Source: Antedon mediterranea (Eukaryota; Echinodermata; Crinoidea; Comatulida; Antedonidae). From it: a stretch of DNA of 64,000 bases. The notes under the pieces are model-generated. The model searched no databases. It had not been told where the DNA came from and was given only the letters and a program-made list of their open reading frames with translations. Location: positions 5,853,001-5,917,000 of the forward strand of contig NC_092670.1 in assembly GCF_964355755.1 (NCBI RefSeq). The letters run 5' to 3'. The position numbers were made by a program, and so were the translations under genes. This document shows, one piece after another, positions 665-56,743 of this stretch (within the stretch, counting starts at the first letter, position 1; every line of letters begins with the position of its first letter).

Positions 665-9300
<8,636 letters not shown>

Positions 9301-26349: not shown

Positions 26350-26428
26350 CATCGCATGGTTTTATTATACAGTAAGGCAGTAGACACATACATTTGGTCA
26401 TTTTCTGCGTGACTATACAGAAGCACAT
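26350..26428 (-). pseudogene. Gene A counterpart of the PCDG exon
   Basis: The sequence before the donor GTAAAT reads LLPYCIIKPCDG in the frame that continues gene B's DSLLPCDG...FPPCDG exon (51690-51749). No acceptor is visible at the matching place. The frame is open upstream to an ATG at 26399-26401 or 26426-26428 (MCFCIVTQKMTKCMCLL), so a new first exon is conceivable, but a relic is the simpler reading. Confidence 0.45.
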
Positions 26429-26577
26429 GTTGTAAATTGTTATTTATCAAAGCATCGCGGAATACAGGTAATTCAAATACTTTTAATTTGCATATGTCAC
26501 CTTCACGATTATGTAATAGGTCATAAACCAATGCTAATCTAAAAAGTATAATTTAGCCATAATTAACATTTTGATAA

Positions 26578-27794: not shown

Positions 27795-28428
27795 TGATGA
27801 TGTATCCAAATCCAATCAAAAACTTTTTCAAGTACAAATTTTCAAAACAAAAGAGGAAAATCAATATTACCAATAAACTTATTCGGATACACTGTTTTAG
27901 GTATCGGTAGAACTGTATAATTGTATACCAAAGTAGGAATCAAATAAACGTTCTAAAACATGAGTAACGCAGTTTGTAAGTGTACACAAGTATATCTCGT
28001 GTTGATCTGCATATAACTGTAGCTAAGTAACGTAGTCATAATAATATTGTTATTGTTTGCTTATATTTGGAAATTCCCATCCTTGTAATTAAACCGTGGT
28101 ATTGATAACAATATCCTTTTTGATATACCCTGTTTAGTGTGGACATACCTGTGGTCACACAGGTGTGTGTATGTGGGTGAACTAGCGACAAATGAAAGAA
28201 TAATGCTTATGAAATGACATTGTCGTTTACTGGTAAATGTATTAATATACTGTATAGTGCTGTAAATATTTTATACAGTAGTAGTAATTGCCCCTTCAAT
28301 TATTTTTTAAAAACAACAAAAAAAGGAAAACAATTAAATAAATGAATAATTGGTTTCTGTACTTCCATGGTATTAAACTGGTCCTGTGTGTATTGCATTG
28401 CATGTTTGTTTTTGTTATGCATGTAAAA

Positions 28429-28489
28429 ATAAAGATTAATTAGAATCGTAAAAAAAAAAAGTAAACTGTAACAATCGAATGGAATTTAT
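28429..28489 (-). pseudogene. Gene A signal-peptide exon relic, ATG changed to ATA
   Basis: The flank TTGCAAAATAAATTCCATTC aligns with gene B's TCGCAAAATGAATTCCATTC at its start codon; the ATG at 56741-56743 in B corresponds to ATA at 28487-28489 here. The rest of the exon and its donor are not conserved. The upstream X-box-like motif remains. Confidence 0.6.
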
Positions 28490-28608
28490 TTTGCAACCAA
28501 CGCCTGTTGATTAAAAAATATAATGTAACGGATAATTGGTGTCGTTTATTGAGACCCGTTACTGTACTGTACCATAAACAATACGAATGTGAAAGTATAT
28601 TTGTTTAC

Positions 28609-28621
28609 GTTTCCTGGCAAC
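28609..28621 (-). promoter_or_regulatory. X-box-like motif in gene A 5' flank
   Basis: GTTTCC-T-GGCAAC, two inverted half sites with a one-base spacer, fits the RFX X-box pattern. It lies 120 bp upstream of the lost start codon, like the motifs of genes 0 and B. Confidence 0.5.
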
Positions 28622-36202: not shown

Positions 36203-36285
36203 TCAGTTCCACGCATTTATGGAAGTAGGTGTTCCCGCTCGACTTCCTTTCAAGCTTGAGGCAATGAACATACCATCCAATGAGC
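36203..36285 (-). CDS. Gene B last exon: cytoplasmic C-terminus
   Basis: Acceptor TATTCACAG, then SSLDGMFIASSLKGSRAGTP and TSINAWN, stop TGA at 36203-36205. Length 83 bp as in gene A. Confidence 0.85.
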
Positions 36286-39200
36286 CTGTGAATACAAGAT
36301 ATTTCATCACAAGTTTATTTATTCATCCGTCGAATATCGATAAAATACAGATTACATTAGAAGAAGAAAAACAAAATATCAAGTACAGGGTCTACAGTTT
36401 GTAATGAACTTTTTGGTCATCCAACAACTTAATTACAACCTATATTCAAAACGTACTGCACATGTCCAATAAATATAGCACGTGTCAACATTAATTGTTA
36501 ATTTCTTATTATATTTATTTCCTCCAGAAAATACAATATATACAGCAAAATAAATAAATAAATATAAACACAATATATAAATATAAAAAAGCTTTAGTGA
36601 GGAGCTGATAGGAGGGAAGGAGGGCACGGAGGTCCTATACAATAAATGTTTGGAATCCACAAAGTACCCATCAGCAAACACAAAATTAATCAAATAACCA
36701 ACAATTGAACAATTCACTGTGATATTTTGGGTTTATAAATTAAAATTATTTAAAGGTTATATTAGGATATGTATAAGTATAGTTGTATAAGGAGTTGGAT
36801 AGCTGAGTGGTTAGGACTTACATACAGCTAGACCCGGGTTCAATTCCCGAGAACTCCCAGTCCACTCAGCTGTAAATGAGTACCTGGTTGAAAATACTAG
36901 GGAGAAAAAAGGCGGCGTGGAAAGGAACTACTGGCCACCCTACCACATAATGCCGAGGCTTAGTACAATCAGCTCCTAACAGCTCATTCCCCTACGTTCA
37001 GAGAACACGGGACTCACCTTTACCTTTATAAGTATATACCTATTTTTAGTCGCGTGGAAGCGACTCTATAGTTCACTATGTCGGTCGGTTGGTCGGTCTG
37101 TCTGTCTGTCTGTCGGTGGTCCGGTATCACTATGCGTTTTATCGCTTTCTGACCTTATCTTGATATCAGTTTAATCTAGCTAGGTCAATTTTTCACAGTA
37201 TATTCCTTATGGCCAGGAATCAATGTGGTTATGTTTTAACGGTGCGCAATAAAAAATTACGCGGTCTACGCACGATTTAACGAAATCACGTTTGTAATCA
37301 TATCTTCACAACCATGAATCAAAATTAAATAAAATTTGGTACTCATAAATTTCAGGGCATAAATCATCATATGGCAATACAATTACGTGCGTAGCGCATG
37401 TAACGCATGCGTATGCGCGCTTAAAATTTTCAAAATTTATTTTCGATGAAATAAGAGTACATTTCAGGCAATTTTAAGCGTTTACAAAATTGCCATGAGT
37501 GCGCATATTTTTGCGTGCGCACTGCGCGTTAAATGTTATTGCGCACTCTTTTTGCCCGATTTCTGTTTTCTTGACTTACTTTTCAACTCGAAATTACGTT
37601 ATACGAGCACGTCGAAAGTGACAGGCTACGCACGTGTAAATTAAAAAAATATAAATGTTTTTAAACATTTCAACATTTTTAAACATGTTCAGTAATTTCG
37701 GTCAGTATAGTTCACTATGTCGGTCGGTCGGTCTGTCTGTCTGTCGGTCTGTCGGTCTGTCTGTCGGTCTGTCTGTCGGTCTGTCTGTCGGTCCGGTATC
37801 ACTATGCATTGTAGCACGCGACTTAATGGCTGTTGGCCTTGTTAAATTAAGATTTAACATTTGTTTTAGGTTAATGTCCACCTCAAGCTCGATCCTGTTT
37901 TACTTACTAGATGAAATTGCGCTTGGTCCTGATACATCTGTTGATAAACTTGTAGGCGAAGGAGACGATGATGGTATGGAAACGATTTTACTACTCGTGT
38001 AGTTGCTTTTGTTTGGTCGATGAAGCCTAGTAACATAAATATTATTTCAAAATTCAATTTTAAATATACCTAATTAAATTTAAAAAAATTATTATTAGAA
38101 AAAAAATAATTATTAACAAAATTTCTGTTGAATATGCCATTTTAATGTCACATAATAGTTATCCACTTTGACCAAAAATTAGATCTGACCAAACTATATT
38201 TACCTGAAAAACAGTAATTTAAAGCAAAAAAATAGTCAAATTGGCTGCCAGCCAATGGATTTTTGGTTGAATTTAATCATTAATTTTGTCATTTTATAAG
38301 TAAAAACATTATTTTTTCCGCTTTTTTTTTCTACAGAAGTGATTAACTTGATTAAAATGACAAAATAATCTATTCAAAGATTTTATTAATCTTTATTTTT
38401 CATGTTTTTGGGGGACAATACATCTTTAAAGGAAAAGAGGTTGCCTGTTGACACGAATCCGTAACAATCAGTACGATCAGAGAAACCTAACATATAACGC
38501 TTTCCTTTTTAGTCGCCTGCAACGCGACTTTACATGTCGGTCGGTCGGTCGGTCGGTTGGTTGGTCGGTAAACACTAATTTGAGCACGCGACTGCAGCCA
38601 TGTATATGGCCTTGTTTTAAGGCATCTCGAAAACAAGAAGAACATTGCCTTTTTTTTAGAACGGTCGCTTATATACTAAAAGTGATTAATTAGAAAATAC
38701 ACACCATTTGTAAACTCCAAACGCAAATCCGAACAAAATGATCACTGTAAAACAACAAACTCCAATCAGTATGAATACAGTGTATGATTTATCATCAACA
38801 GGTTCTTTTTCTTCAGAATACAGGGAAACATCTATGATTTCCATTTGAATAGCAGCCTCAATGCTCTCTTTTTCTTGTTCAATTGCAGATTTTACAACTT
38901 CAGCGGAAATGTATTCTGAAACAAAATGTTGAACCATTTTAATTTTTAGTTATCCCGTTTAAAATGTATAAATATGATTTTATTTTCTCTATTTGAACTG
39001 ATTTATATATTGCCTAATAAAGTAGTTGGATGTGGTATCGCATATTGAAAAATTACCATTATAAAATATCTAGATTTGCTCTCCAGTATCATAAGAAGGT
39101 GGATGTTTTTAATATTTAATTCAATATCGTATATTCAATATTATTGCGATAAACAGTATTACTACTTTTTTTTAGATGAACATTATTATACTAATTTTTT

Positions 39201-42200
39201 ATTCTAAAATCTTACCATTAGCCACATTATTTCTTCGGGAAATTGAATGTTTTTTATTGTTAGTTGAATCCCTCTTTTGTCTTTCACCATTGTTTTGGAA
39301 ACATGTATTGGAATAATTTTTGTATCCAACAGACATAACGATGTCAATCTGGTTATTAGCAATCTTTTCATCAGTCAGCTTTATTTGTCCGATAGTTGTA
39401 ATATCTTCATTTAACGTATTTTTTCTGGTGACAGAAAATAAAATGTTTTTTTTTTATTGTGCAATTGTTGTAAATGTGTTTGTCATATTAGAGAAAATGG
39501 CTATCACATCATAATCATATAATTTATTTAATTTCATCATATATAGAAAAACCCCCCCAAAAAAAAACGCACACCGACAGAACAAATGTAAATCAATGAA
39601 ACAGGATTACCTAAATATTTATTAATAATATAGTGTACTTTAAACGTATTTCATATAACTTACGTATTGGTTTCAGTCCAATCGCAGCAACTAGCAGCAT
39701 TTATAAGGCAATATGTGTTCATAGCGTGCATAACGCTTATGCGAAATACTTCTTTCACTGTAGGAAGCCACTGTAAAGTTGTAATGCGGGACGAATTATT
39801 GTTTAAAACATAAGAATAGTATACTATTTTCTACAGTGTAAACGACTTATATTCAATATTATTTATACTAAAGAAATAAAAAAAGCAGATTCAATCTTGC
39901 AGAAATTACAGAATAAATAATTGATTTGGTATTCAAATTCCATCAAATATTATATGCATTGTCCCCCAAAACATAAAAATTAAGATAAATTGAAATCAGA
40001 ATTTTATTTTTATTTTATGATTTAACTTAACTAAAAAGACAAAATATTGTTTTTAACAAACTTGACAATTTTTTTATTTAAATTACAGTTTTTCAGGTAA
40101 ATATTTGTTTACATCAAATTGTTGGTCAAACTGAATAATAACTATTATGTGACATGTATGTAAATGGCATACTCAAGGAAAAGCCAACAGTATTTGTTTG
40201 TTTGCTTACCGGTACTTCATGACCTTTTAATGTCAATGATACGGCTTCATTATAATTATCGACTGTGTCTGTAAGATACGAAATTACAATTTAATTTTAA
40301 ACAAAGCATTTATTAATTTCTGAATAACTTAAGATTTTTACATATTGTTTGTTGATACATAAATACAGTATGCTTACTTGACAATTTTGTTAATTTAATC
40401 TCTGTTTCAGTCACTGGTTCAGTAAGGATATGCTCATTGGTGCGTGGCTCCTCAGAACTAATGTATGTCTGTGGTGTGGATTTAAATGAAGTCATATATT
40501 TTCCATTTTTTACTGATGTAACGTCATTAATAGTAGAACTTTGACTTATCTTAGTCACAAAATCTATATCGCTTCCTAATGTCGTCAAACCATGCAATTC
40601 AGTACGATCGTCTTGAAGGACTGTAGGTTCATCGTATGAGTTAGTGCGAACAGAATTGGTAGAATAGCCAGACGTGCTCTTAGTATGTGTAGTTAAAACA
40701 GGACTGCTAGAACTAGAGGGATTTGGTGATGATGTATAGTATTGTGTTCCCTGTGATGTTAACCTTTCTGTTGCCTTTGTTCCAGTAGATGCATCAGTAT
40801 TACCAACTGTTTTGAAATCATGTGACGCCATTACGTTCGAGGTCGTAATTTTAGATTTAGAGGTCATAACCGTCGATACAGTTGTTTCACGCTCTGGTAC
40901 GTTTACTTCTGTAACTGTAGTCTGTTTGGATGTGTCACCACCAATCGATCTTGAGGTTATAGACGGTTGTGTTGAAGTATCTTTTACTTGAATGGTAGTT
41001 TGTCTGGTTTGTTTACCTTTTCCCTCACCGCTAGTCGACGTTGCTATTATGTGCTGGGTTTGTGTTCCAGTAGATGCATCAGTATTACCAACTGTTTTGA
41101 AATCATGTGACGCCATTACGTTCGAGGTTGTAGTTTTAGATTTAGAGGTCATAACCGTCGATATAGTTGTTTCACGGTCTGGTACGTTTACTTCTGTAAC
41201 TGTAGTCTGTTTGGATGTGTCACCATCAATCTTTCTTGAGGTTATAGACGGTTGTGTAGAAGTATCTATTTCTTGAATGGTAGTTTGTCTGGTTTGTTTT
41301 CCATTTCCCTCATCACTAGTCGACGTGGCTATTGTGTCCTGAGTTTCTGTTTCTGAAATTGTAGGTTTCTCAGTTCCATCATTGCTACTCAAATCCATGA
41401 TATTCAACGTAGCTGGTGTATCCGTATTAGTACTTGTTTGTGAAAGTATCGTCTTCTCAATTGTTTTACCTTTATTATCATCAGTACTTGATATCGAGAC
41501 ATCCAACACATCTGTTGTGGCCAGAGTTGTTCTTTTTGTCTCTCGAATTGTAGTTTGTTGAGTTCCGTCACCGTTTTCATCATCACTATTCGTCGTTGTA
41601 TGTTTTGACAAATGAACAGCTGAGTTTGACACAGTAAAATCAGTTTGCAGAGTATCTGTCAAACTAGTACTTCTTTCATTTGTTGCTGTGTAAGTACTAT
41701 GCATTGTTCCTTTTTCCAAGAACGTTACGTCAGCATAAGTGCTCTCGGTGATACTCGATGATGAGGGCGGTGAAGATTCACTAACTATATGTGTTGGTGT
41801 ACTTACAGGGTCGTTCACATTGGCCGTTGACATAATGGTGTTCTCGGTTTTCAATGAAGTCAAGTGTGTTCCTTCAGTTATAGGTGTTTCTGGAAAACAA
41901 GGTAGACCTACAACATTTAAACAACAACAACATGGCTGAAAATCAATTTGTACACATCATTGACAAGTTGTAATTCATTTAAGATATTGTTGATGTAATG
42001 TAACACAAACAAACGTTATAAAGTATACTGTAGGTACAATTTGTCTTTAAGACTTTATTAATTACTTAAGTTAATAGTGGACAGTAACACTGCTGGAAAT
42101 ACTGGTACTTGCTGCTTAAATCAATCAATAGTGTAGTATGCTTGTTTAAATCAAACTGTGCAAAACATATAAATACTGTATACATACCCTCCGAAGTTTC

Positions 42201-45200
42201 AGAAGCAACACATTCATATAAACTGGATCCGTTTACAAAAGCACAAACATCACCATTTTCACATTTGCAAACATAAACGCTGAAATTAAACGTGGCTGAA
42301 AACCCACACTTGTCTTGCATATTTATCTCAAATATCGAATCAGGATTTGACATTGCAGGTGCCCAATTAAATTTTCCGGATGTAGAAATGGTTGCATTAA
42401 CATTTCCATAAGTTTTGTTAAATGTTATCCCACAGCCTTCTGGATCCTGTATATCAAACGTAAATGTGATTGGTTCTTGGTGGATAGCTGTGTATGGGTT
42501 GGACGTGTAAATTATCGGTGCAGCATCATCTAAATTATTTGTTAAAATATACCAAGACATCATAAGTATCATAATCACAATTGTATAGTTGTTATAAGTG
42601 AAAGAGATTAGACGATAAGTGAGTTGTTCTAACCTTTGCGAGGTAACCAGCTGTCGACAGAGTCCTCTGGTAAACATTGTTGACAGCAATCTTCTGTATT
42701 TACATCAAATGCAGCGTAGCAGTGACCATCGATATTGCAGGAGTTATTCTGAAAGACATCACAAACTGCCATGTTTATTTTAAAAGTAATTTAATTACCA
42801 TATTGTAACAAGTTTTTAATATTTTTATTATTTAAAGCTTTTTTTCTGGAATCAATTTCTTCAAATTTACTTAGAGCGTAAGGCATCGTAATTAGTTCTT
42901 GCCTCATCAAGAACCTACTTTGGACTTAAACTTTATTTTTGTTTTTTACATAAATTTTTATAATAAAAGTCAACAACCTTTAAATAACATTCTCCTTCTG
43001 ATGCATTGCATACTTGGCAGACAGAATCGTAAACAATCAATACTGCCATTTCTTCACTTTTCAATTCACCATCATTACTAATTGATATCAGATAACCACT
43101 CGCTACAACACCTTCTCCTCCTGGTGAACCTGGTTGAACTGCAGGTTCCGGTAAGGGACATTTTACTTCTTGATCAGTTCTGAATATTCCTGATACTATG
43201 GAAGTTTCTTGAAGCAGTGTTACGCCAATGCCACTCACCTACATTGTTAGAAACAAAAATCACAATACATATTTGTAGGCCGACTATAAACTTAGATTAT
43301 ATAATTCTTAGATTATTTATACATTGTTTACGGCGTGAAACTTACATTGATGTGTTGGATGTGACAAGTAATATTTCCTCTTTCATCAAAATTTTCTCCA
43401 TACACTTTAGCTGATCTACAAGGTCTGCTACGAATATCACAGAGACCATCGCCAAGAACAGCAAATACTAAAGGTGGTTCAGCGAGTGAGATGGAGCAAT
43501 CGCTTCCGCCAAAACCTTCGATACAGGCACACGTCCCGTTTATGCATTCACCCTTATCGCTACACTCATTCACACATAGCTGTCCTAACAGTTCAGTTGG
43601 TGGTACAAGAGTTCCATTCTCGGATACTTCCCAATATTGTGGATTTGTGGTTAGTTCTAACTCGCATCTGTCTTGAAGTTCCGTCACCGTTTGTTTAGCA
43701 ATAGACTCATCATCTGCTACCTAAATAAATAATAAATGTTTTATAACAAAAATGAATGTTATGTGTTCGCCTAGTTAAAAATAGAGCAGTCAATTTTTGA
43801 ACGCATGAAATATTCTCACCATATCTAAATCATAAACATTCAGTATCTATATAATAGATTTATGTACATAAAGCTTTTTTTTTCATTATCTAAATACGTA
43901 TAATCATTACCATAATGTCAACAATGCAACCTTCAATGATGTCATCAATAGTGATCGATCCATTATTGATTGCATCTAAACAAACTTCATAAGTAGTCGA
44001 GTTCAGCAATGTTTCTGTACAAATTTTTGTTGTATACTCTTCAGTTAATCCATTTGGAGTTGGGAATTCTGGAATCTGGTACGTGAACATTTTAGATGAA
44101 AATAAATTTAATTAGTGTGTAATTGTCTGGACACTAAAAGTTACAAGAAGATACAATTACGAGAGTAAATATATTTGTCTAAGTTATATACATAAAAATT
44201 TAAAAGAGTTGCTTTCCGATAGAACTCTTCTGAAGCAGTTAATAGTTACGAGAAACTTAACAACTTTATTTATTTGATCAATTATAAATTGTTAGTATTA
44301 CCTGGGGCTCAAAATCAGGATCGCCGTCGAATGGAGTAAATTCGTAATTTCCAGCCTGGTCATCAAGATCATTCACCTCCACTTCTCTCTTCCTCCTTCT
44401 TACTCCGTTAGTCTCCTCGTCATCATCACTACCACAGCCTAGATTATTGTTGTTGGCGTTAAGTCCATTACAGTGGTCACATTTAATATTTCCTTCTTCA
44501 CATGAACAATATCTTTGAATCACATATGGGTTGTCCACGTTAAGAGCTCCCAGGAATATATTTTCGTTGTTTTTAACCCTATTATTTAAAACATTTAAAT
44601 AATATATTATTTTCCTTTAAACAATGACATTACCAAATTGTGTTTAACTTTTAAACTATAGTTTACAAAGTCAATCTTGTTATACATTCAATGTATGCAA
44701 AGATGAACTACTAATATTTCAATTGATCGTGCTTATAGACGTGAAGAGTAGTTGAAAGAGTCGTGAGTTCCAACCCTTGTAGTACAGGTCAGGATTTAAA
44801 CCTGAGCCTTGGGGATTAGAGGTTAACGTTAACCATCACGCTACAGCCACTATGTTGGCAAGAAGGAAAAGAATGCAATATTAATTATTTTTAGTAGAAT
44901 TATTTTAGGCAAACAAACATGATAATGAAAAAGGTGCATCGCAAACATGTTTGAACTTGATACTCAGTGATGATGTGTTCTTTATCTACTATCATTAAAA
45001 GAGGATAGTTTTATCTGCCGTGTTACCTGTTTGTGTCAACAAAAGACTGGAAACAAAATATGTATTCATTTAGAAATTGAATATACTATAATGTAGTCTT
45101 ACCTCCAACTATTATAGAAGTTTTTTGGATCAACTGTATTGTAATAAGCTGGTTTGCAGTCTTCTGGTTTTACACATTTGTAATCAGGTACACTAGAATT

Positions 45201-48200
45201 TCCATACTGACCATCATTGTGTAGTTTGTTATCAAAGTTTCCGCACAACCCTTTAATATTCTCGAAATCATCCCATGAACCCGTCATAAATACACTCACG
45301 TAACGACTCCAAAATAACTTTATTGTTATGTAGGACCCTGTCGGTAGGTTAATCTAGTGAAAACAAATATTTTGTGAACAATTACTAATTTACTATTCCC
45401 TATAGATATTATCCTACGTATTTAACGTTAAGTGGTTAGGAACCATTTTGACTGTGATTTCTTTTCAAAATTAAAATGATGAATACAATGATAATTAGTT
45501 TTTTTCGAATTGTGTATAGCCCTACACTTTTTTATTGATAATTATCGAGAATAAATGAAGGATTTATATTGTTTAGTTCTCTTTTAACAACTTATCTATA
45601 TATAAATTTACGTAAGGGCAAAATTCGGTAAATCGCGCCTTACTTCTAGAATGTTTACTCGATGGTATATAAAGTTGGTTCGTACTTTCGGTACTGATTT
45701 TAACCACCTGATGTAACCGTGTTTACTAATTAAATTAAGTTAGATAATTAGTTATTGACGATTAAAACGAATTTATGTTCAACGATTTGCCCCAAATAGG
45801 GGTGTTTTCCGATCGTGGTATACACTGTCTAATGTATGTCCATCTTGAAAAATACCCGCAGACAATAATACGAGGATGCTTCGCATTTTCCTATCTCCTC
45901 CTACGATAATTGTTTTTAACTAGAGGGTGAGCTCGCTTCGCTCGCTCCCCCTCTAGGAAGTGTAGACGATGGTTCTCGGAATGATAATGTTCTGCTTATA
46001 CATTTTCTGTCGGTTACCATTATTGAAATTGCTTGACATTCGTAAAACTGAACTACTTTGTTTCACAGTGTTTTAGATGATTAATAACATTTTAAAGTAT
46101 AGTTTTTATTGTTTGGTAGGGCCCTTTGGGGAGGCGGAGGTCATTTGAGGGAGGTGCTTATTCGAGGGATATATGTTAAATTTTTTAGTTCTAATAATAT
46201 GGTAACATTTATAATCAAATGAAATCCTCTCATAGATATGAAAAGTGGTAAAAAAGAATAACAAATGCTTGGTAAATTGCAGATAACAGTGTGGTGAATT
46301 CTACTACAAATAGTATAATTGTGTTATTATAAATATGTGGATGGACGTTTATTAGATAGTTGGGTTGTGTGGGGGGGGGGGGGGTTATTATTCAAAGTGA
46401 TGTTTTATTGGAGAGGCGTTTATTCAAATGAATACCATCCTAATAATTATTAATACATTATTTAATTTAATCATCTTTTGAAACTAACTGCCGTGACAGA
46501 GTGGGCCCCAGAAAGAAGACATTACGGCTTGCAACATGGGCAGACATCTCGGTCCTAACGGGACACAGGAAGATAGCCTACAGTTATTCCTGCAAGCTTA
46601 CTCAATAAAACTCAGCTATCGGGATTTCACTCGAAAAATGTCTTATCAAATCTCCCTATGTAATTTTATAATACTATTCCCCACAATATATTCTGATTCT
46701 TTATGGCGTATATTTAATTTGATCTTTATTAATTTGCAGTATAATTCCTATTATTTAACTACTGTACCTTCACACACGTGTGGTATGTTTTAAAATAAAC
46801 AAAAAACGGAAATGGCTATGATTAATGGCCAATTTTTTTTTCGTCTTCCAAAGGGACACTGTATTTATTGATGGAAGTGCCTGTTTCCACTCACCTTTAG
46901 GGTCAAATCTATTATTTTAACTGCTCCCTTGTGTATAAAAGAGAGAAAATATTTGAAACTAAGGTGAACTTATCTTAAACCCGGAAATTACTTTGACCGG
47001 GAAGAATTGAAATTGAGAGGAAAATCCAATGTTGAAATCATAAATGTTGTTAAAAAACTCTTTATAATATCTTCCTAAGATATAAATATGGAACAATAGC
47101 GTCGGCGTGCACACTAATGTTATCAAATCTACGTTTCGCGGTACATCTCGGATAGATAAGGTAGATAAGGCGGAGATTTGTACCGAAGTTTTTGCATTGT
47201 GCTCGCCTATGTCATAATTAACCATAATTTATATATAGATGGCTGAAAACCGGTTGAACAGCTCGAGTACAGCATCATAATGTTGAAGACAGGCCGATTT
47301 TCTTTAAAAAATACTGTTTTGATAGATTTAATATACGTTTATACAAATGTATTGATTTGAAATGAATGGAACATTCCAATATCTGTTCCACAAGTGTCTA
47401 TTCCCTCAGGCGTCGTAAAGGCAAGTACTGTATACTCATAACAGAAATTCGATCCATTTTTTTTTTAAATATGTGCTGCAGAGGTTGGATCATGGAACTA
47501 TAATATATATATATATATATATATCTTATATTATAGTTCCATGGTTGGTATTTTTTTTTAACGGATAATGAGCTAGCGTTTTCAGTCGCCGTATATTATG
47601 TACACATCTTTATTATTGCAGTTAAACCACCCACATCATCACCTCACTGGCATGAGTAGCGTTGTAAAGCCAGTAGAGGATAGGCCTACGGTGCATCATA
47701 TGCCCTAAACGCAGAACAACTTTGGTGGGTAGGGTAGGAACCAACTTAAGTATGAATTGGCTCTAAGAAACAATTGAAAACCATTAGGCCTACTAATTAA
47801 GTTGAGTTCGATAATTTAATATTAATTGACGATTAAATCGAATTTATGATTTGCCCCTAATAGAAGTGGTTTTCACAAATTGTTCTACATTATATAAACA
47901 TATACACGTGGTAGTGATGTATCGTTACATGTACTGTACTATTTCAATCGACTAGGACGGTGATAGTTTCAACAAAGTATTACATCGCAATGTTTTACTG
48001 TGTTTAGTGGTATATTATTTGTAAAACATGAAAACAATTAATATTTCGTTACTACATGGATAAAGAATATATTTAAAAATTGTTCCTCTTTGCACCCATC
48101 CTCTTTCCCACCCCTCAACTCTATAATGTTACATACAAAACACAAATTAAGTTTGTTTAAATTTGACTTAAACAATTGGTCTCATTTTGTGACAAGTTTC

Positions 48201-51200
48201 TCTTTCGGAAATAATTCACAGGGTGCTAATTTTAGTTCAGTACATAAATCACAGTGTCTATTTATTTTGCGGTACGTACATTTGAAATCGCCAGTTTTTT
48301 AACGCTGAAATTATTATGTATTCGAGAACCATCTGTGGGCACGCGACCTAGATGGTACGCGAGCGAGGCGAGCGTACCATCTACCAACTTACCTTAAAGT
48401 GTCTATTTTTGTACTCAAGAGATGTCCCAGGTGTTCTTTCACCGTCTTTTAATATTTCAGCTGTTGTCACTTTCGTATTAGTAGGAGTCCGCACCTCTTT
48501 CACCACTCCGTCGTGTGTTGCTTTAAATATTGTGTAAGTGTTACCGGCATCATTGCATCGATCAACAATTAAGTGAGTATGGCCAACTTGAACGGCAACT
48601 CCACATGTGCAAGTTACGCCATTGCATGTAGACAATCGAGTCTGAACCTATGAGATATAATTTAGTTTACGAGCTTAGACTACCATTGTTGATGTTTTGT
48701 TAATTTATGATTTACAATCTTTAGTATCATTGTTTTGACGAGGACTCAGTCATGTGTTATTTGTGAATTTACCTTAATAGGCAGAGTAGTGTGCTCGTAG
48801 AATATGAAATCTCCAGTCCCGTAAATGTGGTAATACCTGGTAATAAGGTAAAACAATTAATTAAAAACTCCGGAGATTGTAATGATTAATAATGGATGAT
48901 GGATTTTCAAATTGTTCACCACCGATGTTTTAATAAAATGTCTACACTTTAAATATAAACGTGGTTGTGAAACATACAGTAGACGTGCTTTTCTCAATAT
49001 AACAATACGATATTCATTGATATACTGCTAAAACAAATACAAAACAATAAAAATAGACGATATAACATTTAAACAACAATAACTTACCATCCATCAAAAC
49101 TACGGTAATGTGGATCACCACTTCCAGAACAACTTTTAACATTCACACCATTTGCAATTATCTTTATCAAAAATGAAATAAAACTTTTTTATTCTGTCGT
49201 AAGTTACTCGCAATTTAAGTTTTTGTAGACATTATAGTGAACTTTATCTTATTAAAAATATTATTAGGTTTCGTTGCAGGCAGTTTGAAATTAGAAGTTT
49301 CCATCAAAGAAAAATGTACAGTACGCAAAAATACTAACAAATCAAAAAATACAATATAAACTAATTACATTTATTTTATTAATTTATAAACTTATTTTAC
49401 ATGGATGACATTTTCATTAAAATAATGTTCTTACAAATGGTCCATGATTTAAAAAATTCATGCATAATAATGAACAGTGATAAGTTACAAAAGTTACAAA
49501 AATGTTTTGTTTTGTTTTAGATTATAAAAAGACATACCAGTGCAATTACATTTATATTATGACGACTACGCTTTCTTGTTTCTTGTAAATTGAACATTTT
49601 TATTTTTCGATTTAATAATTAAATTGTATTGTTTAATAACCCAATGTATTTGTATAGAAAGAGGTAATACTCACTTTGAAAGTGGGCAAACTAGTTTGTC
49701 TTGACTTCCATATTCTACTAAGGATCGTATCAAACGTTAAATCTCCCTTAAACCTTATATAGTTTGCTTTGTTTGCATATTTGAACCACGTCTTAGCTGC
49801 TATTATATTAAACGTTGCTGGAGAAACGTTTGATAAACGTTTTTTACAAGACTTGTCCGAGTACGCATAATTGCCATCAATATCGACATCTATGTTCAAT
49901 TCTAGTTCTTGGTTTGCAAAAATCATACGGAAAAGTTGAGAATTAGGAACGATGGGTATGGTTGAAGAAATATTAAATTCTATTCCATTATTTGCACCAA
50001 TATCAAATTCAATGGTGTTGTTTGGTTCGACCTTAAAAACGATTGAAAATAAACACAAATATTTAAAATAATATTTAAAACAAATTCTTCCAATTTAAGT
50101 AGTACTTACGAAGATATAAAAACAAGTAACAAATTAAAACCAGTGACGATGATTGGATTGGGAGGGTTAAGCTTTTTGAATCACCCCCTCCCCCCAAACA
50201 GGTTGTGGGCTTACCGAAATTGTATTGTGAAGATTTTAAAAACTACCGGTACATTTAAAATGATTAAAGTTATAGTTCCCGTAAATATAGACTAATATTG
50301 CGTATTATAAAATAATATAACATTTAATTTAGAAATAAAAACAAACACCATATATTAATTATTGAATCTATGGTCTATAATTACTCACCGTTAAGCCTGC
50401 ATAGAATGTGTTACTTCTTACACGAGGTGAAAAGACATGTTGATCCGTGAATTTAAGACTCACCTCACATTGCACCTAACCAATAACAATGAATATCATT
50501 ATTTAAAAAAATAATAATACGGTATAATTAAAAACCAATATTAATGTTTCTATTATTTTTTTTAATCTTGTTTTAAATAAATTATGTAATATTTTATTTT
50601 AAAAACATGTTAATTATTAAAAACAATACCATATATGGAAAAAAAGAAATAATATTTATATATAAACTGTATAATATAATAATATATAAACTGGAATTGG
50701 TCCGGCGCCTTGTGAAAAATATCGCGATCGTGCTTTCACGTCGAGCACGAATTTAGTTATCCGGTGTCAAGCGAGGTTATTCATACTCACTGTTGGTGGT
50801 CAAAGTCAAAAGAAAAACAATCATATGATTTCAAGAAATAAATGGCTTCTTGATCCATCGCTCCGAATTTAAAGCCTGTATCAGGTACGGATTCGAATCG
50901 TACTAAATTGTCTACGATTTTTTTCTCAGGCCGCCGGACCGAATCCGGACGTGAAGTGAAAGCAGCTTTACTTACATTTTCCAGGAATCACGTTTACAAG
51001 ATAACCATAGGCTTACGTGTTCACTTACTAGAGGGTATGTCCTAAGCGAGCGAAGTATTGTAAATATAATACTTACGTATGACCCGAGTTTGCTGTTGAG
51101 GATACACTGATGAGGTTCGCCGCCTCCTGAGCACTTTTTTGGGTCTGAAGCATCTACGTCATATTCATCACTAATTTTATGTTGATTCTTTTGTTCGTAA

Positions 51201-54200
51201 GCCATTGTTTCGTTGATAAACCATCGCACATAGTAATCTATATCATTGAAACTTTCCGTGGTGTTTATGTTGCAAACTGCCGATATTCCTATTTCCTCAG
51301 CTTCAAATATCAGAACTGGCTCTTCGTTGAACGTTGGAAAATTATCTAATAAATTACATTGTATGATTGTTAAAGTACCTGAATTGTCATAATTTACTAA
51401 TGTCAAAGCTTTATTATTAATAGAGTTAGTTATAACAATTTGATTATAACATAGTTTACAATTTGTTTGTCATGTATTCATAAGATTTTGTTTGTAAATC
51501 CTTTGAAAAAAATTAATAGAGTAGTATGTAGGCCTACTACTGTATGTGAAATTATCTTATGAACGTGTGATGTAATTATTTTTTTATTCATAATCTACTC
51601 TGCGTATATTAGCCAATTAGGCAAATAATAGATCTATACACCTTTTTTCAGAATGCTTGTACAACGAAGATAATTATAATGAAACTTACCATCACATGGT
51701 GGAAAACCAGTTGATGAGGTCAAATTACCATCACATGGTAAAAGAGAATCTGAAAAAAAAAAATGATTAAACAAAAAATCTTCTAAAAGTAATAATACTA
51801 AAGTCTAACAGTTTGTTCTTAAGGTTGTTTTAGGTTATATTAAGGTTCTCACGTGACATTTTAGTACTATTTTTAGTCGCGTGCAATGCGACGCTACATG
51901 TCACTATGTCGGTCGGTCGGTTGGTCGGTAAACACTAACTTGAGCACGCAAATGTAGCCATGTATATGGCCTTGTTTTGAATCGAATTGATTGAACATAC
52001 ACAGTTTGTAATACTTACCTGTGCAGTACCCCATATAAGGTTCCGGAGTGTCAGTAAGGTAATGAACAAAATATTGACCATCTTCAGTTGGACAAGCTTT
52101 AATACAAATCGCCATTGAATAGGCACACACAGTTCCATTGAAATCTACACACCCAGTAACATTTTGGATTGGGTCTCCATTTTCTGGATATGTTCCTATA
52201 ACATTACAATATGAAACTATGAAAATAATTCACAGCACATCACACTCTTCTACCTCTTATACATATTACAGTCACATTCAATAAAGTTAAGTGTAAATCA
52301 GTTAACAAACCATTAATCCAAACTGGATATTTAGTTCCACATTTAAAATTTCCTGGTGGTGATGTTGGCATTCTAATATCGATCCTATCACCCTCATTTC
52401 TCAGATTGTACCAGCCATCTCTTATGTAGTTGTCAGATATAATGAAACCCGGTTGGGTGTCATGGTGGATGCTACGGTACCAATCTGTAAGTTCAAGCTC
52501 AGAATGGCATGGGTCACCCTCTGTTGCAAAACAGTCTTCATAAGCTATCACTTTAAAGTGAATGAACAATATCAATTATTAATGTTGTGTTAAGTTTGTG
52601 TTGTGACAAACAATAAATGGTATCACTCGGAAAAACAAAACCTTTCTATGTTTGAGATGCTGAATAGTAACAGATTTTATAACTTGAAAATACTTTTCTA
52701 ATTTGTTTTCATGTAGATGATGATTGTGAGTCCTTATCACATTATACTAATGTGGTAAAAGACAAACATTACATTTATTTCACAGCCGGTTCATCTTATT
52801 GAATTCAGTATTGTGAAGTTAACGTTAACTATCATAATACTGATTAATTGATGTATACATTTTCAAAAAAAATCTCTTTCACCATTTTACAATTTATTTT
52901 GTTTGTAATTTTTACAAAATTTACCATTTTCTGTCGTTGTGAGACTAGTCTCTGTTTGTACTTCCGTTGTTGAATCTGAAAAAACAGATTTATTTTAGGA
53001 CTTAGGCTATACCTATTTGAATGTAAATACTTTCACTTTTATTATTATTACGAAAACTGTCTTTTTATTCAAGAAAAGGTTTATTGACTTTGCCTAACAT
53101 TATTGAGTGTTATTATAAATATCTCAAAACCAATAAAAACCATTTAGAGGAAAATATTAGATGAAGTGTAGATGAAAAATGTTGGTTCAATAAAATAGGC
53201 TTGTAATACTTTTAGTTATATAATCGTAAAAGATGTAATGCTTTAGAGACATTTTACTATATCTATACTTTGTTTGAAGGTTTGCATGGCGAAATCAAAT
53301 GTTGATATAAAGTTTGCGGTACACCACGTGTATTAGTTCTGATAAGAACAGTTGAGTATCTCGACGTTTCGATCAATATGCTTTGATCGTCCTCAGGACC
53401 AACCAACCGACAGACCGATCGACCAACCGACCGACATAGTAAGCTGTAGAGTCGCATTGCACGCGACTAAAAATAGTACTAGAATGTCCCCGACTCAACA
53501 GTTCTTTTCAGAACTAATACACGTGGTGTACCGCAAAATATATATCAACATAATATCTATACTGCTAAGATGTTTTGCATTCTTTAAAACCCTTCAAGAC
53601 AAGATGTGTCTAACCTTAATATTTACCTGTAAATATAAGTAAGCCTCCTGGTTTATTAAGTCGACTATCACTACTTTGCATGGATGATATTCCAGTCTGT
53701 TTATCAACTCGATATATACCCGACGTCCAATCTGACCAGTACAGATAGTTTCCGTAAATCTCAATACCAAAAGGATACTTTCCGACTACATAAATGATCG
53801 TCCTTCTGCTGGTTCCATCAAGGTTAGATTCCTCGATTTGTCCAGTTCCTGCATCACACCAATACATCTTCCCCTCTTCAATAAAGAAGAGATGATAGAA
53901 AAGAAAGTTGTTTTAATGAGACCATATTTTTTCTTTTTTCATTGATACAAAATTTTAATGTCAAGTGAAATGTATTATTCTCAATTTAGATGAGAGGGTA
54001 GATGAGAGTATTTCTTGGGCATCATCTTTAATTAATGTTTCTGTGATGCATTTAAAAAGGCAAACAAGAGTAATGAGTGTGGATACTCCTCATTGTAAAT
54101 TTCTGTCTACATTATCAAACTAGTTTGACAAAACTGTCTATATATTGGTACATCACATTGTTTTGTTACAAAAGGTTTTATAGTGTAGACAGAGCTTAAG

Positions 54201-56743
54201 CTACAATCGTTCTTCTCTTAGTTTGTGATATTAATAAACCCACACTACTACTACTACCCGCTATCATGTGTACGATGTACTCAATAACTTAAATAGTTTA
54301 GCACTTTGTCAAACTGAAATAATAAACCAATCCAACTTACCAGAAACTGATAAAACCAGTCCGTTAGGATATATAAGTCCAGTCGTCACAAGGGCGGTTC
54401 TTGTACTCAAGTCATTTAGTTGTGCTCGCTCTATCATATATGTTCCCCAGTCAGTCCAGTACAAGTATCTAACAATATATAAATATGCAGTCGCGTTAAG
54501 GTCGATAAGGAACTGTACATCATTTCTTATTTTTATTTTTTTAATTTCAATTCGCCATCGACAGTGGGGAGCCCCGCCATTTACAGATTGGAATACATAC
54601 AAAAAAACAAGACAAAAGAAAATCTACAAGACCCAATTACAAACAACTCTTAATTTTGGATTTAAATAAAGATATGAAAGACGGCGAAAAAACGTTTCCT
54701 CACTCAAGAAATAGTAATGAAAAGATATTATTTTAAGGTAATATTTTTTACATACCCATTCTCTGTGTCTATCTTAATTGCACGTGGTTCCACTAATGCT
54801 GAGTCAAATAGAATGGTTCTGTCTGTTCCATCCAGATTTATTACTTCTATTCGGTCTTCTGCAGTGCTTGTCCAATAAAGTTTATTTCCATTTCCATCAA
54901 CAACTAAACCATCCACACCTGAAATAATGATAATGTTGTATAAATTTGTTTTTTTTTTCAATCTATCTTGCAATTCAATTGCTGTGTTTGGGCACCTCAT
55001 CAAAGTTTCTGGGTTTACTTACATTATAGTACAGACGATTAAGAGCGGATATGATTCGAATCTTCAAAATTAGTAATGGTCTTTACAGAATGCAGCAAGT
55101 TGTTGATTGTAGGTGATCATTTTTATAATTTTACTGAAACTCTATAGTTCACTATGTCGGTCGGTCTGTCGTTCTGTCGGTCTGCCTGTCGGTCCGGTAT
55201 CACTATGCGTTTTAGCACGCGACTTATGGCTGTTGTCCTTGTTTTTAAACATGCACGTACGTTAACATACGACCAGAGGTCATAAATACAAGTTGTAGAA
55301 AAATAAAAGTTTGGCCTAAGACTAGAAAGGTTTTCTTTAGTTGTACATACCATTTATGTAGTAAATGTAGTAAAAGAATCTGGTTAATGAATATTGAAAG
55401 ACTCTCACCTAATCTTTCACTTCTAACACCCACAGTCAAATATTATTATTACAGTTATCGTTTTAATTCAACAAACGTTTTTGTACCCGGATTCCTCCAA
55501 ACGTCTATAGAGTATTTATAGTCTTGTTCCAAAGAAAAAAAGAACGGCCATATAAACTGGTAGGCTTGTTAAGTATCAAGCAAGTAATCAGGGGGATACT
55601 TTGGATGTTCTTAACCAAAGCTCTAATCATACAATATTCATCTATAATAGAACCAACACTTTAATCTATTAAAACCCATTGAATCTTCTATTATGGATCA
55701 AATATATTCTAAACTTATTATTAAAAAGCTATCGTTGAATTTAAAATGAAAGAGTTGTACCAAGAAATATGTTTACTTTAATTTCTTTTCTCATAAATAT
55801 TTTTTTTAATGGCTCATCTAGCTTAAAATAAATTATGTATTGCCACAAAATAAATTATATTTATACTGTATTCTATCATTATTCATGAATTTTAAAAGTT
55901 GTTCTTACTTCCAGATTCAAAAGAAACTAAAACTGTGTGTTGGTTAGTAGCAATTGAATAAGATTCAATTGAAGACGTGGCTACGTCAGACCAATATAAT
56001 GTTGAGGTTGTGGCATCAAAATCCAAAGCCACTGGTCTAGTTAGTAGATCATTTTGGACAGCAATTGTAAAATTCAAAGCTGTGTTTCCGCTGACATCTA
56101 TATTTGAAATGTATATGCCCGGAAGACCAAGGTTGGTCACAAATATAATATCTTCTGTGAAATAATAATAATTTAAATCAAATATTAAACATTATAATAT
56201 GTCAAATGAAGTCGTTTTACATGAAATTGTTTAACCCACCAATTATATCCTTTGTCTGTGGCCATTGAAGTCAGTATTGTTTACCTTATTGTTTTATAAA
56301 ATGACATTCAGCATGACACAGAAATATTAATAATATTAATTCAAACAGAAGTACCATTAACTTTTTGTTCGGTAGGCGAAATTATTTTCGTGAATGTCTA
56401 TGCGTATCTTCATCTCCGTGTATGATTGTTATGGTACGCAAAAAAACGCATCAAATCTGATCCCATGAATGTTTGATGTGTGCAAAATAAAATCGCATAA
56501 TGAACGCACCGTCATAAAACGTGTGCCGCTGTTCTAAAAGCGTCTGTTCAAATAAAGTTATTATTATTATAATGGGAAATATGTTATACTAGTTATACAG
56601 ATCCATGTTATGAACATGAATGTATTTCCTTCTACTTACGTCTTAACATTATTTTTTTAAATAACTAAAATAAATACTGTACCGTTTGCATATACAGCAA
56701 TTGATAACATTCATGTAATCTTTAAAAACAGAATGGAATTCAT
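36203..56743 (-). CDS. Gene B: propeller-D8C-VWD-EGF-mucin transmembrane protein (VWDE-like)
   Basis: Predicted coding exons: 56683-56743, 55909-56154, 54756-54918, 54341-54468, 53626-53875, 52925-52975, 52311-52550, 52019-52195, 51690-51749, 51077-51408, 50389-50475, 49675-50031, 49088-49161, 48773-48836, 48393-48647, 45103-45353, 44302-44578, 43911-44075, 43346-43720, 42978-43238, 42634-42748, 42188-42529, 40378-41889, 40210-40268, 39664-39770, 39216-39423, 38705-38915, 37908-38026, 36203-36285. Phases agree at the junctions checked and every exon after the first is open. The product is about 2000 residues: an extracellular receptor or gel-forming-like protein on a mucin stalk with one transmembrane helix. 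D8C plus VWD plus EGF is the VWDE/uromodulin-like combination; the N-terminal propeller and the mucin-transmembrane end are additions. The signal-peptide exon contains an in-frame TGA (56711-56713), so function needs proof. Confidence 0.8.
36791..37030 (+). mobile_element. tRNA-derived SINE, about 240 bp
   Basis: The head GGAGTTGGATAGCTGAGTGG contains an A box (TAGCTGAGTGG) and the B box GGTTCAATTCC follows at the right distance; GGAGTT pairs with AACTCC at the end of the head. The body contains GGCGGCGTGGAAAGGAACTA and CTGGCCACCCTACCACATAA, a conserved-looking central block, and it ends in TTTACCTTTA repeats. ATAAGTATA on both sides looks like a target duplication. Gene C at about 62376 shows the unoccupied site. 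Confidence 0.75.
37043..37842 (+). mobile_element. (TCGG)n element, long form, complete
   Basis: An 800-bp copy with TTTTTAGTCGCGTGGAAGCG at the left and GCACGCGACTTAATGGCTGT then TGGCCTTGTT at the right, and two TCGG/TCTG arrays, one near each end (37078-37125 and 37718-37793). Each array is followed by CCGGTATCACTATGC. Gene C at about 62390-62410 has the empty site, so the insertion followed the duplication. Confidence 0.8.
37908..38026 (-). CDS. Gene B cytoplasmic Ser/Pro exon
   Basis: Encodes LHRPNKSNYTSSKIVSIPSS then SPSPTSLSTDVSG and ends AISS at a GTAAGT donor. Counterpart of 13750-13871 and 62525-62631. Ser-Pro motifs could be kinase targets, but no domain is recognised. Confidence 0.8.
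38125..38432 (+). mobile_element. MITE family D, right-end copy
   Basis: Shares the interior and the right terminal GGGGGACAATACATCTTTAA with 35629-35959 but lacks the left terminal repeat. It lies in the gene B intron between the cytoplasmic exon and the transmembrane exon. Confidence 0.6.
38504..38617 (+). mobile_element. (TCGG)n element, copy 7 (short form)
   Basis: TTTAGTCGCCTGCAACGCGA, five TCGG tetramers with TTGG variants, GTAAACACTAATTTGAGCAC, GCGACTGCAGCC and ATGTATATGGCCTTGTTTT. It is 114 bp and lies within a gene B intron. Confidence 0.75.
38705..38915 (-). CDS. Gene B transmembrane exon
   Basis: Juxtamembrane segment KSAIEQEKESIEAAIQMEII, acidic EEKEPVDDKS, and the helix VFILIGVCCFTVIILFGFAF ending GVYKW. 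Donor GTGTGT. Paralogous exons are 14134-14350 and 62845-63052. Confidence 0.9.
39216..40268 (-). CDS. Gene B membrane-proximal extracellular exons
   Basis: Exons 40210-40268 (DTVDNYNEAVSLTLKGHEVP), 39664-39770 (WLPTVKEVFRISVMHAMNTY then CCDWTETNT) and 39216-39423 (TTIGQIKLTDEKIANNQIDI, VGYKNYSNTC, ERQKRDSTNN). A basic RQKR-D site mirrors RRRR-D in gene A. Fold unknown; a SEA-like module is possible from position and size. Confidence 0.75.
39955..40190 (-). mobile_element. MITE family D, partial inverted copy
   Basis: GCATTGTCCCCCAAAACATA at the left is the reverse complement of the family D right end; CAGTTTTTCAGGTAAATA and AATGGCATACTC follow in inverted order. It lies in the gene B intron between 39770 and 40210. 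Confidence 0.55.
40378..41889 (-). CDS. Gene B mucin exon
   Basis: A 504-codon uninterrupted Ser/Thr-rich exon without cysteines, bounded by TTCCAG and GTAAGC. A 285-bp (95-codon) in-frame direct duplication lies at 40781-41065 and 41066-41350, with units such as TTVTEVNVP and NVMASHDFKTVGNTDASTG in both. The two units differ at only a few positions, so the duplication is young. Expected to form a rigid, O-glycosylated stalk. Confidence 0.85.
42188..42748 (-). CDS. Gene B cadherin-like and Cys-rich exons
   Basis: Exon 42634-42748 encodes NNSCNIDGHCYAAFDVNTED, CCQQC and SWLPRK; exon 42188-42529 encodes APIIYTSNPYTAIHQ, SGKFNWAP, DKCGFSATFNFSVYVC and the half-EGF CKCENGDVCAF. Both are the same length as in gene A and are very similar to it. 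Confidence 0.8.
42978..43238 (-). CDS. Gene B IPT-like exon
   Basis: Encodes SGIGVTLLQETSIVSGIFRT, EVKCPLPEP, GYLISISNDG and CQVCNASEGECYLK. It is 3 bp longer than in gene A (a Gly codon in SPGGEG). The weak GTTGTT donor is conserved. Confidence 0.75.
43346..43720 (-). CDS. Gene B EGF-like exon
   Basis: 375 bp, with CVNECSDKGECINGTCACIE then GFGGSDC and VFAVLGDGLCDIRSRPCRSA. It is almost identical to 19340-19714 (ORF offset exactly 24006 bp), suggesting recent duplication or gene conversion. Confidence 0.9.
43911..44578 (-). CDS. Gene B post-VWD exons with furin-type site
   Basis: Exon 44302-44578 encodes RYCSCEEGNIKCDHCNGL, GSDDDEETNG and RRRKREVEVNDLDDQAG; exon 43911-44075 encodes IPEFPTPNGLTEEYTTKICT and closes IEGCIVDIM. 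The RRRKR-E site is fully conserved with gene A, arguing that cleavage matters. Confidence 0.85.
44765..44855 (-). mobile_element. Degenerate tRNA-like SINE head
   Basis: On the minus strand TGGCTGTAGCGTGATGGTTA resembles an A box region and AGGTTTAAATCCTG a decayed B box (GGTTCAAATCC with C to T). No paired acceptor stem or tail was identified. It lies in an intron of gene B. Confidence 0.35.
45103..49161 (-). CDS. Gene B VWD domain exons
   Basis: Exons 49088-49161 (CSGSGDPHYRSFDGW), 48773-48836 (YYHIYGTGDFIFYEHTTLP), 48393-48647 (TCTCGVAVQVGHTHLIVDR) and 45103-45353 (VSVFMTGSWDDFENIKGLCG, NFDNKLHNDG). The GDPH and GLCGNFD motifs identify VWD. The 3-kb intron 45354-48392 holds a nested Helitron pair; the gene A counterpart is 272 bp. 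Confidence 0.9.
45920..47239 (-). mobile_element. Helitron-like family B, copy B2, nested in A6
   Basis: Minus-strand 5' end TCTATATATAAATTATGG at 47239 and 3' hairpin ending CTAG at 45920. Host sequence reads GTTTTTAA at one side and TGGCTGAAAACC at the other, against uninterrupted GTTTTTAATCGCTGAAAACC in copy A2, so it went precisely between A and T with no duplicated bases. A run of 13-14 G is at about 46370. Compared with B1 it has an extra segment of about 130 bp near 46600-46735. Confidence 0.8.
47498..47552. repeat. TA-rich palindrome
   Basis: CATGGAACTATAATATATAT and its complement TATATTATAGTTCCATG enclose a short (TA)n; it is inside Helitron copy A6 and absent from A1 and A2. Confidence 0.85.
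49675..51749 (-). CDS. Gene B exons between D8C and VWD
   Basis: Exons 51690-51749 (DSLLPCDGNLTSSTGFPPCD), 51077-51408 (ALTLVNYDNSGTLTIIQCNL, then PTFNEEPVLIFEAEEIGISA and YVRWFINETM), 50389-50475 (VQCEVSLKFTDQHVFSPRVR) and 49675-50031 (VEPNNTIEFDIGANNGIEFN). The acceptor ATAAAG at 51409 was chosen because it keeps phase 1 with the preceding exon; a second possible acceptor (TTATTAG) is nearer the DNFPTFN part. This beta-rich region corresponds to the N-terminal part of VWDE-type proteins. Confidence 0.7.
50695..50975. mobile_element. Possible GC-rich MITE
   Basis: GGTCCGGCGCC near the left and GGCCGCCGGACC near the right are in inverted orientation, and the outer words (GCTTTCACGTC, GTGAAGTGAAAGC) recall the 29371-29553 element. 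Missing from the corresponding gene A intron. Boundaries uncertain. Confidence 0.4.
51870..51977 (+). mobile_element. (TCGG)n element, copy 8 (short form)
   Basis: TTTTTAGTCGCGTGCAATGC, TCGGTCGGTCGGTTGGTCGG, AAACACTAACTTGAGCACGC and ATGTATATGGCCTTGTTTTG. In the gene B intron just after the second D8C exon. Confidence 0.75.
52019..52550 (-). CDS. Gene B D8C domain exons
   Basis: Exons 52311-52550 (EDCFATEGDPCHSELELTDW, then IDIRMPTSPPG, KCGTKYPVWING) and 52019-52195 (TYPENGDPIQNVTGCVDFNG, VCAYSMAICIKACPTEDGQY, GYCTG). Together they contain exactly eight cysteines, with the MPTSPP/CGTxxPxW block and the C-x2-A-Y-x...YFVHYL...YCT ending of D8C domains as in uromodulin and VWDE. The donor of the first exon is GTTTGT, weaker than the others. 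No counterpart is found in gene A. Confidence 0.85.
52925..52975 (-). CDS. Gene B Thr-rich linker exon
   Basis: 51 bp between TTTTTTCAG and GTAAAT, encoding DSTTEVQTETSLTTTEN. Joins in phase 1 to the propeller (IFTG) and to the D8C exon (VIAYEDC). Homologous to the gene 0 linker at 8288-8335. Confidence 0.75.
53299..53551. mobile_element. Composite inverted-repeat element with Penelope-like end and (CGAC)n remnant
   Basis: Arms GTTGATATAAAGTTTGCGGT...TTGAGT (53299-53355) and ACTCAACAGTTC...ATATCAAC (about 53490-53551) are inverted. Inside the left part, minus strand, lies CTGAGGACGATCAAAGCATA then TTGATCGAAACGTCGAG, a stem-loop often seen near the ends of Penelope-like retroelements. The stretch 53395-53472 is an inverted, cut (TCGG)n element ending AGTCGCATTGCACGCGACTA. 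Confidence 0.55.
53626..56154 (-). CDS. Gene B LRP-type YWTD beta-propeller exons
   Basis: Exons 55909-56154, 54756-54918, 54341-54468 and 53626-53875, about 262 residues in all, the size of one six-bladed LDLR class B propeller. Repeats: LYWSDVATSSIES, LYWTSTAEDRIEVINLDGT, LYWTDWGTYMIERAQLND, MYWCDAGTGQIEESNLDGT and LYWSDWTSGIYRVD, with linking YPNGLVLS and KYPFGIEIYG. The junction GLVLSVS-EGKMYWCD is restored exactly by splicing. Propellers of this type bind protein ligands in LDLR, LRP and nidogen. No EGF module follows, unlike in LRPs. No counterpart was found in gene A or gene 0. Confidence 0.9.
55128..55246 (+). mobile_element. (TCGG)n element, copy 10
   Basis: CTCTATAGTTCACTATGTCGG, a TCGG/TCTG array, CCGGTATCACTATGCGTTTT, AGCACGCGACTTATGGCTGT and CCTTGTTTTT. 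The leftmost AGTCGCG end is lost. In the propeller intron of gene B. Confidence 0.65.
56683..56743 (-). CDS. Gene B exon 1: signal-peptide exon with in-frame TGA
   Basis: Aligned codon by codon with gene 0 exon 1 (same 61 bp, same phase), it reads MNSILFLKIT, then TGA at 56711-56713, then MLSIAVYAN. The gene 0 codon at that place is TGG (Trp). A single TGG to TGA change would remove the signal peptide; starting at the next ATG leaves a leader of only about 9 residues. Sequencing error, a null allele or another first exon are all possible. The donor GTACAG is intact. Confidence 0.6.

Follow-up and report, generated by a model that had tools for sequence, protein, structure and literature searches.

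VWDE proteins form a secreted class with VWD and EGF domains and are expressed in vertebrate blastemas (PMC9117669), and in GP2 and uromodulin the D8C (D10C) decoy module presents the glycan that is bound by the bacterial FimH (PMC8930769). In the skeleton proteome of the red coral, five YWTD domains are found in a single protein, and some matrix proteins contain HYR or vWD domains (PMC7853314). The crinoid locus described here was compared with these systems and, in addition, with the YWTD-repeat proteins LRP, LDLR and nidogen, with transmembrane mucins and with two hyalin-like HYR loci. The window, i.e. the whole stretch of 64,000 nucleotides that was analysed, corresponds to C1:5853001-5917000 of Antedon mediterranea (genome of 354 Mb in 18 contigs); beyond it, the sequence was read over C1:5823001-6047000 (224 kb), 6 kb left of the tandem array, 8 kb of C7 and the two further loci B (C1:6513001-6553000) and C (C1:6697001-6757000). 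Positions without contig prefix refer to the window, and all genes described in it lie on the minus strand; array copies are numbered c1 to c7 from left to right, the propeller-bearing gene being c2.

The predicted c2 product resembles VWDE in the succession of VWD and an EGF-like region, and its segments following the latter are presumably VWDE-like as well; it differs by its membrane anchor (one TM segment), its Ser/Thr stalk, its N-terminal D8C and, in c2 only, the YWTD propeller. With uromodulin and GP2 it shares the D8C decoy module including two matched N-glycosylation sequons, but this module is placed on a TM protein with VWD; a ZP module was not among the seven Pfam families listed for c2 (E 0.5). 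Compared by eye with the list in PMC8930769, 6 of 10 D10C cysteines of GP2 are matched in c2 and 3 of 5 disulfide pairs are complete; the four missing cysteines are both partners of the disulfides C2-C9 and C3-C6, which fits a loss of whole disulfides, and extra cysteines are present in c2. The YWTD repeats of the c2 propeller are of the kind known from LRP, LDLR and nidogen; beside the propeller, where linker and D8C come next, there was no Pfam match to LDLa (Ldl_recept_a) or EGF, and an NPxY motif was not seen by eye in the tail. The Ser/Thr stalk, the juxtamembrane segment with its basic site, the TM segment and the short tail are reminiscent of transmembrane mucins, although no SEA domain was detected in c2 by sequence. 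Loci B and C contain D8C and propeller exons of the c2 type, whereas in c2 the two come in the opposite order and HYR was not matched. Neither a propeller-D8C-VWD-TM protein nor an array of this kind was found in titles and abstract openings among the open-literature matches listed.

Gene model and domain assignment of copy 2

The predicted model of c2 comprises 29 exons from the ATG at 56710 to the stop codon at 36203 and encodes 2174 aa in a single frame; all 28 introns are GT-AG with consistent phases, and there are no internal stops. It was trimmed by hand, i.e. several short gene-finder exons that had been proposed for c2-c7 were removed as being unsupported in the other copies. The sequence-only reading of the window had likewise arrived at 29 exons, and the order it had given (propeller, D8C, VWD/EGF, Ser/Thr exon, TM and tail down to 36203) was recovered; its span of 36203-56743 held at the 3' end, but the homologous leader ATG at 56743 runs into an in-frame TGA after ten codons, and translation stays open only from the following ATG of this frame, at 56710, with nine residues (MLSIAVYAN) ahead of the splice site. 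Since the leader is damaged, the c2 product is uncertain: a restart leader of nine residues falls short of the usual length of a signal peptide, and the leader as read argues against normal secretion of what the assembled gene encodes.

The order of the encoded parts is leader, YWTD propeller, linker, D8C, VWD, EGF-like region, further segments, Ser/Thr stalk, TM helix and tail. The leader exon E1 (56683..56743; donor ACG/GTACAG, phase 1) is conserved in c3-c7. The propeller is encoded by P1 (55909..56154; entry in phase 1), P2 (54756..54918) and P3 (54341..54468), all three assigned by Pfam, and by P4 (53627..53875; exit in phase 1); a Thr-rich linker exon of 51 nt or 17 residues (DSTTEVQTETSLTTTEN; 52925..52975; phase 1-1), related to linker exons of the neighbouring CUB-MAM-LDLa gene, separates it from D8C exons a (52311..52544) and b (52019..52195), both with PDB matches and conserved in the copies. 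All leader-propeller-linker-D8C junctions are in phase 1; the donors of E1 and D8C exon a are weak compared with the consensus, yet kept across the copies. Downstream follow a short Cys exon (51690..51749) and two exons (51378-51077 and 50475-50389; 50389..51378 overall) conserved in the copies, the latter pair taken by us to be Ig-like from its pattern, with no Pfam match in the c2 product at E 0.5; the exon X1 (49675..50031), also kept in the copies; and the four Pfam-assigned VWD exons (49161-49088, 48836-48773, 48647-48393 and 45353-45103; 45103..49161 overall). A Cys-rich exon with the furin-like site RRKR (44578-44302) and a further exon (44075-43911; 43911..44578 overall), an EGF-like exon of teneurin type (43346..43720; Pfam score under cut-off) and three C-terminal exons (43238-43014, 42748-42634 with Cys, and 42529-42188; 42188..43238 overall) are all conserved in the copies; judged by their patterns, which had no database match, the first of this trio is presumably IPT-like, the last cadherin-like and the whole VWDE-like. 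The stalk exon (40378..41889) encodes 504 aa with 38% Ser+Thr and contains a 285-nt repeat. The juxtamembrane exons S1-S3 (40268-40210, 39770-39664 and 39424-39216; 39216..40268 overall), conserved in the copies, contribute the second of the two furin-like sites, RQKR, shortly before the TM exon (38705..38915), which encodes the only TM segment of the product, a hydrophobic stretch near residue 2081; two tail exons conserved in the copies (38026-37908 and 36285-36203 including the stop; 36203..38026 overall) complete the gene.

Pfam was run on the c2 product without the 17-residue linker. The propeller was assigned to Ldl_recept_b (E 2.3e-24, 86 bits, three stretches) and was covered by SGL (E 7.9e-9), both above cut-off, with phmmer matches to LRP2, LRP4, LRP6, LDLR and nidogen; VWD reached E 2.2e-9 and 38.3 bits against a cut-off of 22.9. 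D8C_UMOD was listed below its 27-bit cut-off (22.9 bits, E 9.8e-5), and the D8C exons matched GP2 (E 8.1e-14 over 127 residues) and uromodulin (E 3.5e-13) in the PDB. Two teneurin-type EGF models (25 and 17.9 bits; best E 1.7e-5), both below their cut-offs, mark one EGF-like region, and one DUF was listed below cut-off. An assignment of S1-S3 as a SEA domain found no support in the databases: the pattern is similar, but Pfam gave no SEA match in the c2 product, and a PDB profile search returned four matches with E between 0.089 and 4.4, all of them to ATP-synthase subunit b.

Several repeats accompany these genes. The intron between the third and fourth VWD exons of c2 contains repeated sequence (45592-48383) with relatives at 3386-6549 and at 26575-27796, the latter in the 5' part of c1. 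A short repeat whose inverted ends are of the ACCATCTAG type, and which may be a small mobile element, is located at 289-352, 5061-5124, 6486-6549, 32406-32469 and 48324-48387, and a GGTC-rich minisatellite with conserved flank was found in introns and intergenic DNA (6577-6660, 38534-38617, 51894-51977, 61948-62031). Reverse-transcriptase fragments between c2 and c3 (59038-59984) are presumably derived from a LINE-like retrotransposon.

The tandem array and the distribution of the propeller

The seven copies of the array lie within C1:5.866-6.034 Mb, and three are located in the window or reach into it. The array is thus larger than three copies, the minimum proposed before, and the propeller architecture is not repeated along it: propeller exons were detected in one of the seven copies, c2, and in none of the six others (224 kb searched, E 0.01), so that the array is not a propeller-receptor family and a propeller common to all its members is ruled out. 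The nearest sister of c2 is c1 (13214..28676), which has a VWDE-type body and tail; its leader reads ATA at the position of the ATG, neither a D8C match nor a propeller was found in it, and its Ig-like exon match falls into two frames, an apparent frameshift, while its stalk and those juxtamembrane exons that were read are open. The 3' end of c3 was located at 61602..64000, the remainder lying beyond the window. The short copy c4 (C1:5946119-5950027; window coordinates 93119-97027) represents a short receptor form with leader, D8C, three Ser/Thr exons and TM.

A short element that reads as a leader exon is common to the upstream regions of c2-c7. In c3, c4, c5, c6 and c7, it is joined to D8C in frame via a phase-1 intron; in c2, this array leader exon lies upstream of the propeller, and the propeller is therefore situated in intron 1. 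The linker exon between propeller and D8C is 79% identical over 62 nt (E 5e-9, splice sites covered) to the linker exons of the CUB-MAM-LDLa gene. A scan for leaders gave no candidate between P4 and D8C of c2 and two upstream of P1, both within a retrotransposon frame; the control upstream of the c3 D8C yielded six candidates including the true leader, and the scan is accordingly a loose rather than a strict one. The upstream leader, the linker exon and the matching phases support the earlier proposal of a single predicted gene with unusual domain order within a tandem array.

Comparison of match coordinates for the 16 D8C matches of the genome placed a P1-type exon at most 20 kb upstream in one of them (c2) and, on the same strand, at most 20 kb downstream in four, with neither in 11; among nine EGF-exon matches, a propeller was nearby in c2 only. 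No propeller was found near three C7 relatives (150 of 288 candidates scored in one of the searches). Relatives of the propeller exons are numerous: at E 0.001, P1 gave 46 matches and P4 gave 68, down to other YWTD repeats as the weakest, and the closest to P4 is at C6:5187558 (76%). At loci B and C, two of the four D8C loci with downstream P1, the exons follow one another as D8C, HYR, propeller, HYR, with further HYR exons ahead of D8C at locus C; against the c2 layout, the related propeller is thus positioned downstream of D8C and among HYR exons (HYR identity was checked by Pfam on one stretch of B, and the gene borders at both loci are putative). Both loci carry HYR arrays of great length, together with D8C and propeller exons, and are perhaps hyalin-like giant genes. 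According to these comparisons, the propeller would be a private addition of c2, with gain as the simplest account. An ancestral propeller lost from all other copies is possible but less parsimonious, as c3-c7 and the C7 relatives are without it; c1 is uninformative in this respect because its 5' part is gone.

The neighbouring gene, shared ends and selection

The 5' part of the CUB-MAM-LDLa gene is located at 1..9300 (leader at 9300-9240, followed by linker, CUB and MAM-like exons), the remainder lying outside the window; the whole region comprises window positions 1-9300 and C1:5818647-5853000. Its leader-like exon is 81.5% identical over 65 nt to the c2 leader (E 1.4e-12), its body contains CUB, MAM and LDLa repeats (MAM 22 bits versus a Pfam cut-off of 26.4), and its 3' end shows a Ser/Thr exon, S1, S2, S3, TM (52-65% identity) and tail in the order of the array. 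We infer that leader, body and tail constitute one gene; a further leader-like fragment of 35 nt at C1:5845312-5845346 leaves room for one or two genes in the region. The TM exon has ten matches genome-wide, all within C1:5.63-6.01 Mb and on the minus strand: seven belong to c1-c7, the eighth (5819609-5819815) is situated at the 3' end of the CUB-MAM-LDLa gene, and the remaining two are at 5633883, with CUB relatives nearby, and at 5668843. Two C7 relatives, read in part and by eye, have TM segments of their own with different sequence, one of them after a long Thr-rich stretch. Since C7 relatives and array possess TM ends, such an end seems to be usual for the VWDE-like family, the array members differing in the head. 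With its similar leader and its homologous juxtamembrane, TM and tail exons, the neighbour suggests that heads seem to have been exchanged on a shared chassis of leader, juxtamembrane, TM and tail.

dN/dS values were obtained as pairwise averages by simple NG86 counts. The propeller of c2 is under purifying selection (dS 0.65 and dN/dS 0.28 versus B over 254 codons; dS 0.67 and dN/dS 0.25 versus C over 257 codons); the propellers of B and C have diverged little from each other (dS 0.026, dN 0.041). For the core exons, c2 differs from c3, c5, c6 and c7 by dS 0.63-0.77 at dN/dS 0.27-0.31 and from c1 by dS 0.14 at dN/dS 0.28; all 15 core-exon pairs gave dN/dS 0.27-0.42 without a sign of diversifying selection, although pairwise averages could hide single sites. 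Purifying selection was strongest in the EGF exon (dN 0.007-0.079 versus c2) and in the IPT-like exon (dN 0.021-0.036). Between c2 and c3, dS is uneven among exons (EGF 0.61, IPT-like 0.16, TM 0.22), which suggests gene conversion.

More tentatively, the entire region C1:5.63-6.03 Mb might be a germline head-swapping receptor locus, in which one leader and one stalk/juxtamembrane/TM/tail set would carry interchangeable phase-1 heads from other gene families and would be partly evened by gene conversion; the head cassettes would then be CUB-MAM-LDLa, D8C alone, D8C-VWD-EGF and propeller-linker-D8C-VWD-EGF.

Proposed receptor architecture and its meaning

The sequence-only reading had itself named the case that would speak against a single gene, namely transcripts that assign the propeller and the D8C-to-tail part to two genes; the propeller could then be a leftover, or the last part, of a different gene. 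Such a division has in its favour that the related propellers of loci B and C sit among HYR exons and that any gene finder can link phase-1 modules; HYR, on the other hand, gave no match with three queries within the 224 kb around c2, the scan attributed no leader of its own to the propeller, and comparison of the copies places the array leader upstream of it and the linker exon downstream, which makes two separate genes quite improbable. A recently inactivated c2, its architecture once expressed and its secreted product now blocked by the leader TGA, has its basis in the ten-codon leader frame, the short restart leader and the decay of the sister c1, which has neither start codon nor D8C and bears the apparent frameshift. 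Against this, the remaining 28 exons of c2 have open frames and can be spliced, and the low dN/dS between c1 and c2 was found at a small dS, and we regard inactivation as unlikely.

The preferred reading, to which we assign a probability of about 0.62, regards c2 as one chimeric gene that encodes a type I membrane protein and in which a propeller cassette has been placed, most simply by gain, into intron 1 of one member of a D8C-VWD-EGF array. By position, the cassette consists of the four propeller exons and the linker exon and is flanked on either side by a phase-1 intron; as its junctions with the leader and D8C exons are all of phase 1, it could be spliced in or skipped without change of frame. 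Against this reading count the damaged leader, the weak donors of E1 and D8C exon a, the placement of the related propeller at loci B and C and the lack of a sign of diversifying selection. Propeller and D8C would form the outer binding heads on a VWD/EGF body, carried by the Ser/Thr stalk, a juxtamembrane segment with furin-like site and the short tail; this anatomy is read from the sequence, and glycosylation, cleavage and signalling of the product would be expected from it. Judged by likeness, the array proteins are probably surface receptors or adhesion molecules of an epithelium whose binding heads are D8C and propeller; their most likely use would be the cell-surface binding of ligands or microbes, the mucosal defence suggested by the sequence-only reading may be one such use, and the exchange of heads on the shared chassis may provide neighbouring genes with different specificities.

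VWD, EGF, CUB and MAM are common modules of matrix and adhesion proteins. The array could thus also encode adhesion or matrix-anchoring proteins, comparable to a membrane-bound VWDE and with no role in defence, an account that is compatible with the same architecture and differs in function only. The purifying selection, strongest in the EGF and IPT-like exons, is in line with it, and a matrix role would also be suitable in view of the YWTD, HYR and vWD domains of the red coral matrix proteins. The D8C, however, resembles the GP2/UMOD module that is bound by FimH in vertebrates (PMC8930769), and tandem expansion and head exchange suit recognition without proving it; a purely adhesive role is therefore considered possible, but somewhat doubtful.

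The locus presents domain shuffling with its parts still adjacent: the acceptor intron, a linker exon related to exons of the next gene, cassette-free sisters and, at other places of the genome, related propellers. Since these parts still adjoin, the origin, the age and the selection of a new receptor architecture become directly testable, and a concrete binding assay follows from the resemblance between this D8C and the module by which uromodulin and GP2 are bound by FimH. If the chassis idea is true, the region would represent another route to the germline diversification of animal surface receptors.
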